A stretch of DNA of 64,000 nucleotides from NCBI GenBank assembly GCA_021648525.1, contig JAKISP010000003.1:1-64000 (forward strand). Reading direction: 5' to 3'. How positions within the stretch are numbered: the first letter of the stretch is position 1; the number at the start of each line of letters is the position of its first letter. Below, in pieces: positions 40,444 to 46,034 of this stretch. The notes under the pieces were generated by a model. It worked only from the letters and a program-made list of their open reading frames with translations. It was not told the DNA's origin and did not search any database. Position numbers and translations under genes: made by a program. The stretch is from Gammaproteobacteria bacterium (GTDB lineage: Bacteria; Pseudomonadota; Gammaproteobacteria; SZUA-140).

Positions 40444-40476
40444 AGTTATCCCCGCTTGCGGGAACTTATTTAGAAA

Positions 40477-40503
40477 TTAGCACTCTTACTATTGGAGTGC
40501 TAA
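40477..40503. promoter_or_regulatory. CIRCE operator (HrcA site) upstream of rpoH
   Basis: TTAGCACTC at 40477-40485, nine bases, then GAGTGCTAA at 40495-40503: a perfect match to the CIRCE consensus in both arms. CIRCE is bound by the heat-shock repressor HrcA. It lies 39 bp before the rpoH start, implying that HrcA controls sigma-32 synthesis. Confidence 0.95.
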
Positions 40504-40542
40504 GATGTAATGAGTGTTATCTTAATGAGAGGGTATTAAGTG

Positions 40543-43041
<2,499 letters not shown>

Positions 43042-43044
43042 GGA

Positions 43045-43824
43045 TCATTGCTCTTTGATGAACTGTTTGATTAAATTAGTGACGTGTTCGTTGTGCGATA
43101 AAAAAGGGGCGTGGCCGGCACCGTCGATAATTTCTAATCGTGCATCAGGCAGTAGCGGTAACATCTGCCTGGCTGCTTTTGGTCGAGATAATGTATCGCG
43201 TTTGCCAAAGATCATTAATGTTGGCTGGGTGATTTTTGAAAGCTGATCTCGCAGGTCGACTTCCCGCAGTATTTTCAGGCCACCCTGCAGTGCGGCCGGG
43301 TGAGGTGTTTCGTTTGAATTCATCAGTTCACGCAGTCTGCGACGTATTACGCGACTCTCATCGCTGCCCATTATCTGTAGCGCAATAAAGCGTTGTAGTG
43401 TTTGTTGAGTATTGTTATTTAATGACTCAGAAAACCCCTGTAAAATTTTTGTTGAAATCGCATGACGCCAGTCATCATCGTGCACAAAGCGGGCGATGCT
43501 AGCGACGAGGATTAGCTTTTTAATTTTTTGTGGATGGCGCAGTGCAATCTGCATCGCAACCATTCCGCCGAGTGACCAGCCAATGAAATTCCCCTGTTTG
43601 GGTAGAGTTTCTGCAATCTGGTCTGCAAGTGTTTCAATATTGTAATCATCGGCTGGCATTGGGCTGTGCCCGTGGCCGGGCAGGTCGATGCAATTAACCT
43701 GTGCGTTGTTTGCTAATGTGTGAGCGGTCTCCTGCCAGATCGCAGCGTTAAATCCCCAGCCATGCAGCAGTGCGATGTGTTCGCCGCTATCGCCACTTTT
43801 GATGCTGTTAATATTATTTATCAT
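43045..43824 (-). CDS. bioH: pimeloyl-ACP methyl ester carboxylesterase
   Basis: A 259-residue alpha/beta hydrolase that removes the methyl cap from pimeloyl-ACP. The nucleophile elbow is GWSLGG, the acid Asp lies in [10 protein letters not shown], and the His in [10 protein letters not shown]. It overlaps bioF by 11 bp. Confidence 0.93.
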
Positions 43825-44992
43825 CGTGTTTAATCACGCTGTCGAGCACTGACAATAGTTGCTCGATATGTTGCTCGCTGTGATTTGCTGAGAAGGCAAT
43901 GCGTAATCGTGCAGTGCCATCGGGTACTGTTGGTGGTCGGATTGCACTAATCAAAATTCCCTGTTGTTGCAGTGCTTCGCTGATGTACATTGCTTCACAC
44001 GAGTCACCAATCAACAGCGGCTGTATTGGTGTGGTTGATGGCATTAGGTTTAGCCCCAGTTGTTGTGCGCCACTGCGAAATCGTTTGATTAATGTTTGCA
44101 GGTGTTCTCTGCGCCACGCTTCAGTCGCTATTAATTTAAGACTGGTCAATGTCGCATGTGCGATGGCCGGTGGTAGTGCTGTGGTATAGATATAAGTGCG
44201 CGCCCGCTGAATCAATGTTTCAATTAGCTCGTCGCTACCGGCGACAAATGCCCCCGAGGTACCAAACGCCTTGCCGAGTGTGCCCACTAATATCGGCACG
44301 TTATCATTGTTGAGTCCGAAGTGCTCAATACAACCCCGGCCATGTTTGCCTATCACGCCGATGCCATGGGCATCATCAACCATCAATATTGCATTGTGCC
44401 TGGACGCTGTTTTAACCAGCTGTGGTAGCGGTGCGATATCACCATCCATACTGAAGACGGCATCGGTAATAATAAAGGAATGGTGGTGATTGGATTTTTC
44501 GAGGCGCTTGTTTAGCGCTTCGGTATCATTATGTGGGTAGCGCCGCATTGTTGCACCGCTGAGTTTTGCGGCATCCATCAGTGACGCATGGTTAAGGCGA
44601 TCTTCATGAATCACATCTTGTTTGCCTGATAGCGCGCTGATTGTGCCGAGGTTTGCCATATAGCCGCTGGAGAAGAGTAGTGCGCGTGGCCGCTGGGTAA
44701 ATTCAGCAAGTGCCTCTTCGAGTGCATGGTGTGCGTAACTATGTCCGGTGATCAGATGTGATGCACCGCTGCCGACGCCATAACGTTCGGCACCTTTTTT
44801 TAGTGCTTTGACCAATGCGGGATGATTGGCGAGACCAAGGTAGTCGTTGCTGCAAAACGACAATAAGGGTTTGCCATCGCATTGCAGCTCAACACCCTGA
44901 GGGCTATCGATCACCTTGCGTGACCGATAGAGAAGTTGCTCTTTTTGTTGTGTTAGCCCAGATGTTAGCCGGGCAGTGAGATCGAATGCCAT
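43814..44992 (-). CDS. bioF: 8-amino-7-oxononanoate synthase
   Basis: A 392-residue PLP enzyme joining pimeloyl-ACP and alanine. ATG 44990-44992 ([10 protein letters not shown]) is chosen because it matches the usual length; a GTG at 45050-45052 inside bioB would add 20 unconserved residues. Landmarks are [25 protein letters not shown] and the PLP lysine in [11 protein letters not shown]. Confidence 0.95.
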
Positions 44993-45011
44993 TGCAGCAG
45001 GTCGATTTGAT

Positions 45012-46034
45012 TTAGACGGTGATTGCGCTGCGGCGAGTCTGGGTATCTTCACGTGCGGTAAGGTGCAGATCCTGAATCATCTTGATGTCCTGCTCAACCT
45101 TGCGCCCGCTGGTGGTGAGGTAGTCGCCAATCATCACCCCGGAGGCACCCGCCATAAAGATCATTGATTGCATGTCGCCAAGAAAATGGCGACCACCGGC
45201 GATGCGAATTTCAGCCTGTGGCAGCATGTAACGGAACACAGCAATGCTCCTGAGAATCTCCTGTGGCACCATTGTGGTTAGCTCTGCCATCGGGGTGCCA
45301 TCCTGTGGATTGAGGAAGTTGAGCGGCACTGATTTAACATTGTTCTGGCGTAGTGTTTCGGCCAGCTCAACACGTTGTTCCAGTGACTCTCCCATGCCAA
45401 GAATGCCACCGGCGCAGACGCGTAGCCCCGCTTCGGTGGCGTGGCGGATGGTGTCGATATTTTCCTGATAGGTGTGGGTGGTGCAGACGTTATCAAAAAA
45501 ACTTTCGGCGCATTCGAGATTATGGTGGTAGTTTTCCATTCCCTGTTCTTTGAGCATCTCGGCGGTTTCGCGGTCGAGCGCGCCGAGGCTAGCGCAGCGT
45601 CCGATTTCGCTATGTTTTTTTAGTTCGCTGAAGTATTCCTTTAACTGATTGCGTTCTTTGTCTGAGCGAACGCCCCAGCCTTTGGAGACGACGCCGAAAT
45701 CACTCGCACCCCATTCGCGTGCCTGTTTCGCCTGAGCCACTAGCGTTTCCGATTTAATGTAGTCGTAAACGGGTGCTTTGGTCTCTTTATGGTGGCCGCT
45801 TTGGGAACAGAACGAGCAGTTTTCGGAGCAGTTGCCAGAGCGAACATTCGAAATGGCGCACACTTCGACTTTGTTGCCGCGGAAGTGGCGGCGGATGCGG
45901 TCGGCACCTGCCATCAACCAGGTGAGGTAGTCGTCATCAAGATTGATCATCCAGCGTCCTTCATCGGCTGTCATTTCGCCACCCTTAAGGATGCGCTGGG
46001 TGATCTCGTCGATGCAGTTGTAGTTCTCGCTCAT
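45012..46034 (-). CDS. bioB: biotin synthase
   Basis: A 340-residue radical SAM enzyme that inserts sulfur into dethiobiotin. The SAM cluster motif is CSENCSFC (in [16 protein letters not shown]), with downstream [11 protein letters not shown] and [10 protein letters not shown]. First gene of the biotin operon, divergent from comF, a common gammaproteobacterial arrangement. Confidence 0.97.

Follow-up and report, generated by a model that had tools for sequence, protein, structure and literature searches.

The rpoH gene of a gammaproteobacterium of the SZUA-140 lineage is preceded by a perfect CIRCE, the predicted binding site of the repressor HrcA, which is superimposed on a sequence with the organization of a sigma-E promoter. 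The two signals probably constitute a composite element: to judge from sequence comparisons, HrcA would repress rpoH, the gene coding sigma-32, by covering the sigma-E promoter whose -10 lies in the operator. The overlap with this promoter is the new part of the finding and its assignment to sigma-E is strongly suggested by the sequence. The CIRCE at rpoH had been recognized in an earlier note on this DNA and stands, while the promoter underneath it was overlooked there. The window, i.e. the whole 64-kb stretch of DNA analysed, features the following elements in this region:

40461 to 40467, + strand: predicted sigma-E -35, GGAACTT (GGAACT with at least 5/6 matching bases is found at exactly the same -16 offset in 61/108 regions)

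40477 to 40503, + strand: CIRCE operator, predicted HrcA site, a perfect match to the consensus TTAGCACTC-N9-GAGTGCTAA

40484 to 40488, + strand: predicted sigma-E -10, TCTTA, located in the CIRCE left half and spacer, 16 bp after GGAACTT

40527 to 40533, + strand: likely ribosome-binding site of rpoH, GAGAGGG, identified by sequence inspection

40540 to 41415, + strand: rpoH (sigma-32), an open reading frame with start GTG at 40540 or ATG at 40543 and domains Sigma70_r2 and Sigma70_r4

The operator sequence at 40477-40503 is TTAGCACTC-TTACTATTG-GAGTGCTAA and agrees with the consensus at 18/18 bases. Its end is separated by 39 bp from the rpoH ATG, as the earlier note had it, or by 36 bp from the in-frame GTG. 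When up to 3 mismatches are allowed, the window has no other CIRCE. Dinucleotide shuffles of the window (n=100) yield a mean of 0.04 matches at that threshold; a chance origin of the one perfect site is excluded. The open reading frame found 3' of the CIRCE has Pfam matches to Sigma70_r2 and Sigma70_r4, its product has RpoH-like relatives throughout Gammaproteobacteria (tblastn and protein searches) and is 84-96% identical to RpoH of nine congeners. The preceding genes, which we take from recognition of their ORFs to be ftsY, ftsE and ftsX, give the order ftsY-ftsE-ftsX-rpoH that is annotated in E. coli K-12. On the opposite strand, positions 41384-46034 carry genes that, from recognition of their ORFs, we take to be bioD, bioC, bioH, bioF and bioB and that are convergent with rpoH; the end of the bioD-like gene overlaps the rpoH 3' end.

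The source genome (3.36 Mb, 76 contigs, 99.91% complete) codes for a single HrcA of 349 amino acids (PF01628, E 6e-64) that matches also HrcA_DNA-bdg (PF03444; 25.2 bits versus a cut-off of 21), and hrcA is followed by an ORF that, from recognition, resembles grpE. A whole-genome scan at up to 3 mismatches gives three CIRCEs, all perfect, which correspond to hrcA-grpE, groESL and rpoH: one separates hrcA from a nadK-like gene in divergent orientation, and the others lie 5' of groES and 5' of rpoH. The earlier note had suggested a search of the genome for hrcA and further CIRCEs, and held that a genome devoid of hrcA would speak against control of rpoH by HrcA; one hrcA gene and two other perfect CIRCEs are present. 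The hrcA CIRCE (L001 1370-2530, contig C42 of source genome G000) thus adjoins a divergent gene that we take to be nadK-like from recognition of its ORF, so that HrcA could also act on nadK.

The association of CIRCE with rpoH extends across the class. The sample comprises 168 Gammaproteobacteria genomes, mostly one per family, of which 158 have rpoH at threshold; the counts cover 152 upstream regions belonging to 150 genomes, while eight further genomes with rpoH, four of them hrcA-positive, are outside the count. A CIRCE with up to 3 mismatches is found 5' of rpoH in 103/113 regions of hrcA-positive genomes versus 5/39 of hrcA-negative ones (Fisher p about 1e-19, which is overstated owing to the kinship of the genomes, a relatedness that makes the p-values of all class comparisons too small). 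Those 103 sites are perfect in 55 cases and carry one mismatch in 33, two in 9 and three in 6. None of the class regions has 4 or 5 mismatches, and the 152 shuffled regions all have at least 5; these shuffles, like those for sigma-E promoter counts and rpoE upstream regions given below, preserve base composition only. The rarity of an rpoH CIRCE implied by the earlier note is not borne out by this survey, in which it is the usual layout in the hrcA-bearing Gammaproteobacteria of the sample. The arrangement seems to be ordinary within the class yet under-recognized.

Closer relatives give a similar picture. Within the genus the rpoH CIRCE occurs in 10/10 genomes, nine perfect and one with 1 mismatch, and of the 36 nearest genomes with an rpoH hit, source genome included, 28 have it next to rpoH (places matched by hand in both sets). 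Named loci fetched by RpoH similarity, and hence biased to near relatives of the window RpoH, have a CIRCE with up to 2 mismatches upstream in 58/67 cases. Among them are Ectothiorhodospira, Thioalkalivibrio, Thiothrix, Thiolinea, Candidatus Thiomargarita and a mussel methanotroph symbiont, as well as two loci whose records bear the names Sterolibacterium and Bordetella; the Bordetella record is a metagenome bin and probably misnamed. Both sets of relatives and the class sample have members in common (e.g. the named loci L034, L035 and L038 share hrcA positions with G009, G003 and G007). The cultured relatives Ectothiorhodospira haloalkaliphila, Thioalkalivibrio denitrificans and Thiothrix lacustris have the same layout, with both the rpoH CIRCE and hrcA. 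In 23 named genomes checked, hrcA is found in 15/15 with the rpoH CIRCE and also in 5/8 without it, showing that hrcA does not depend on rpoH as a target. The 18/18 operator, the hrcA gene in the genome and a site whose conservation tracks hrcA are the features expected of an HrcA/CIRCE regulon member. The link between the HrcA and sigma-32 circuits put forward in the earlier note is thus well supported by comparison, with hrcA present, the genus uniform and the class divided according to hrcA.

Several regions that depart from this pattern have particular features. Two of the ten hrcA-positive regions without CIRCE are second rpoH copies: genomes G051 (L284, L289) and G179 (L257, L279) have two copies each with a CIRCE at one of them (1 and 3 mismatches). 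G035 is one of the five hrcA-negative genomes with an rpoH CIRCE, and its assembly may be incomplete at hrcA, since the congener G168 in the same sample has the gene.

The aligned rpoH CIRCEs of the named loci have in common a GGAACT(T) sequence that starts 16 bases upstream of the operator, and the third base of their spacer is an A. Sigma-E promoters consist of a GGAACTT-type -35 and a TC..A -10 separated by about 16 bp, and in the window positions 40461-40488 have the format and spacing of a sigma-E rpoH promoter. In the CIRCE-bearing class rpoH regions (n=108), GGAACT with at least 5/6 matching bases is found at offset -16 from CIRCE in 61, at -17 in 10 and at -15 in 3, against a median of 0 over offsets -70 to -6 and a minor peak of 6 at -31. 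The motif lies within -18 to -14 in 75/108 rpoH CIRCEs versus 0/24 groES and 0/16 hrcA CIRCEs, controls taken from relatives in which 6/24 groES and 9/16 hrcA sites belong to the genus. An A at the fifth -10 position, which is the third spacer base, is present in 69/74 regions with the -35 and in 17/34 without (Fisher 8e-7). The hrcA CIRCEs have T and A at the same spacer places in 15/16 and 11/16 cases, with no GGAACT, so the spacer is not diagnostic by itself.

A strict sigma-E-type promoter is found in 80/103 CIRCE-bearing regions of hrcA-positive genomes versus 4/103 shuffles, a count that is not independent of the operator because CIRCE supplies the 'TC' of the -10; the signals independent of the operator are GGAACT and the spacer A. 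The -10 overlaps CIRCE in 67 of those 80 promoters (offsets -14 to -17). In the other geometry the whole promoter is positioned just upstream of CIRCE, including six cases at -31 and two at -32, and CIRCE would then cover the start site. Bound repressor would block the sigma-E-type promoter in both geometries. Regions of hrcA-negative genomes that lack CIRCE have a sigma-E-type promoter in 8/34 cases.

The presence of the -35 follows that of rpoE, which was assessed with TIGR02939 (121/168 genomes at E <= 1e-60, 118 above the curated cut-off). The -35 stands beside CIRCE in 75/96 regions of rpoE-positive genomes versus 0/12 of rpoE-negative ones (p 1.3e-7, kinship ignored), and anywhere between -45 and -14 in 86/96 versus 1/12. 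CIRCE-bearing rpoH regions without a -35 at this place amount to 33/108, of which 21 are rpoE-positive. RpoE is encoded in the source genome (321.6 bits), where the neighbouring gene that follows rpoE codes for an RseA_N domain and TGAACCA-N16-TCGTA precedes rpoE. The upstream regions of rpoE in relatives have nGAAC-N16-TCNNA in 15/29 cases versus a mean of 0.3 and a maximum of 3 in shuffles, by a rule relaxed after the source-genome sequence was known and with congeners accounting for 9/15 matches; a stricter rule gives 8/29 versus 1 in shuffles. Genome-wide enrichment of the strict sigma-E motif was not found (7 places versus 20 for the reversed control), the short exact motif making this a weak test, and such enrichment does not define this single promoter. 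Owing to this result and to the 21/96 rpoE-positive regions without an overlapping -35, the sigma-E reading stays at the level of strong suggestion.

In E. coli K-12 the rpoH upstream region contains GAACTT-N16-TCTGA, the format of its sigma-E-dependent promoter P3, and the window has the same format and spacing (GAACTT, 16 bp, TC..A). The two regions differ in the operator: there is no CIRCE at E. coli rpoH, with 12-14 mismatches at the same register, while that of the window is perfect. In Salmonella, rpoH is listed with a known sigma-E-dependent promoter (PMC4577112). HrcA and CIRCE control groESL and dnaK operons in Bacillus and other bacteria (summaries in PMC545781 and PMC3989490). The operator and repressor are the same in the source genome, which has both the groES and the hrcA-grpE sites. 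The promoters differ, the groES CIRCE following a sigma-70-like one (TTGAC in 21/24) while the rpoH CIRCE overlaps the sigma-E-type one.

A perfect CIRCE 5' of rpoH, at position -51, was predicted computationally in Geobacter sulfurreducens together with CIRCEs at hrcA-grpE-dnaK-dnaJ and groESL (Rodionov et al. 2004, PMC545781), and the idea of a CIRCE before rpoH is therefore not new. The regulons of the remaining genomes in that paper's Table 8 do not contain rpoH. G. sulfurreducens is a deltaproteobacterium whose rpoH CIRCE is perfect like that of the window, while the passages of PMC545781 covered here describe no sigma-E promoter there. Within the part of the literature covered, no mention was found of the sigma-E overlap or of a CIRCE-rpoH rule across Gammaproteobacteria; the novelty of both is provisional. 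Any earlier rpoH CIRCE cases would most likely be in the regulon paper of Permina and Gelfand 2003.

The components established by comparison, namely the operator, hrcA, rpoE with its RseA-like neighbour, the promoter-like sequence with its spacing, and a conservation that tracks hrcA and, separately, rpoE, suggest how rpoH might be controlled. In the circuit that we infer from them, HrcA would bind CIRCE in the resting cell and mask the -10 and the start region. HrcA activity requires the GroE chaperonin, as found in Bacillus. Heat or protein damage would titrate GroE and lead to release of HrcA, and rpoH would be derepressed jointly with hrcA-grpE and groESL. Full rpoH transcription would also require active sigma-E, governed by the envelope RseA pathway. 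With HrcA positioned over a sigma-E promoter, sigma-32 synthesis would depend on a signal from the envelope together with relief from HrcA, a gate of the form 'sigma-E active AND HrcA inactive' in which GroE would exert negative feedback.

The conserved bases at the other end of CIRCE allow an alternative, in which HrcA represses only a sigma-70-type promoter contained within CIRCE (TTAGCA-N18-TAAnAT) and GGAACTT belongs to a separate promoter barely affected by HrcA. Its hypothetical elements in the window are:

40477 to 40482, + strand: possible sigma-70 -35-like sequence TTAGCA, matching TTGACA at 4/6 bases and 18 bp before TAAGAT, from inspection

40501 to 40506, + strand: possible sigma-70 -10, TAAGAT, spanning the right end of CIRCE and the three bases that follow it

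A sigma-70 promoter may thus have TAAnAT as its -10 and the start of CIRCE as its -35; its transcripts would begin near 40513, and those of the sigma-E promoter shortly downstream of TCTTA. The final T of TAAnAT is present in 96/108 rpoH CIRCEs versus 2/24 groES and 6/16 hrcA CIRCEs and is conserved above every sigma-E position outside the operator. The sigma-70-like TTGAC that precedes groES CIRCEs in 21/24 cases shows furthermore that HrcA usually works on sigma-70 promoters. The -35 consensus of sigma-70 is TTGACA, however, and the -35-like TTAGCA is merely what the operator consensus dictates. The fixed distance of the sigma-E -35 to CIRCE, exactly -16 in 61/108 regions, is left unexplained, and a repressor sitting on the sigma-E -10 could hardly spare that promoter. 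Exclusive action on a sigma-70 promoter is unlikely.

It is far less probable still that the inverted repeat acts as RNA, with a hairpin of the rpoH leader setting mRNA stability or translation and HrcA being irrelevant. CIRCE is palindromic and the E. coli rpoH mRNA is subject to translational control as a sigma-32 thermosensor. Against this role, the rpoH site tracks hrcA (103/113 versus 5/39), and in 30/108 rpoH sites the third left-half base is a G, which breaks pairing with no matching change opposite. The leader would also lack the full repeat if transcription starts within or after CIRCE. The one fold computed, for the RNA between an assumed start at 40513 and position 40762, is not more stable than those of shuffled sequences (z -0.64, 51/200 as good). 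Least probable of all is a fortuitous or vestigial CIRCE without effect on rpoH: hrcA is indeed retained in 5/8 named genomes that lack the site at rpoH, but the window shuffles exclude chance and the conservation of the site alongside hrcA over about 100 family-level samples points to selection.

The heat-shock response is usually taught as run either by HrcA repression or by sigma-32, or by the two in parallel. Control of rpoH by HrcA at a sigma-E promoter, the reading favoured here, places them in series, with the sigma factor gene apparently transcribed under the control of the repressor at an envelope-responsive promoter. If this is correct, most hrcA-bearing Gammaproteobacteria control sigma-32 transcriptionally through the chaperonin-dependent HrcA, the E. 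coli scheme is an unsafe model for them, and its simpler wiring may be the exception among relatives. A tentative scenario is that sigma-32 synthesis in ancestral Gammaproteobacteria strictly required two stress sensors to agree at the overlapping promoter and operator, with sigma-E signalling damage to the envelope and HrcA signalling that free chaperonin was scarce. Lineages like that of E. coli could then have retained the sigma-E promoter after losing both HrcA and its operator, and shifted chaperone feedback to sigma-32 translation and stability, which would make the textbook circuit a derived one. The system offers a test of regulatory feedback that moves from DNA to protein after loss of a repressor.

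CIRCE remnants were sought at the expected register in seven hrcA-negative genomes with the sigma-E promoter (G073 left out), giving 9, 10, 12, 9, 12, 6 and 9 mismatches, to be read against random registers that peak at 12 and with a bias due to the shared TC. The rpoH operators of G085 (L220), G087 (L239) and G117 (L240) look decayed by eye, with a damaged half-site or altered spacing, and stand beside a sigma-E-type promoter; hrcA was not detected in G085 and G087 and was detected in G117.

Two variations of the rpoH operator were also observed. Locus L205 of genome G029, in which rpoE was not detected, has tandem CIRCEs separated by 5 bp 5' of rpoH. The right half-site reads GACTGCTAA in 13/58 rpoH CIRCEs of the named loci (e.g. 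L047, L060, L063, L078-L080, L086, L092 and L093), and the C at the base that distinguishes this variant is found in 10/108 class rpoH CIRCEs, 0/24 groES and 0/16 hrcA CIRCEs. Half-sites of the GACTGCTAA type are perhaps a weakened operator adapted to rpoH.
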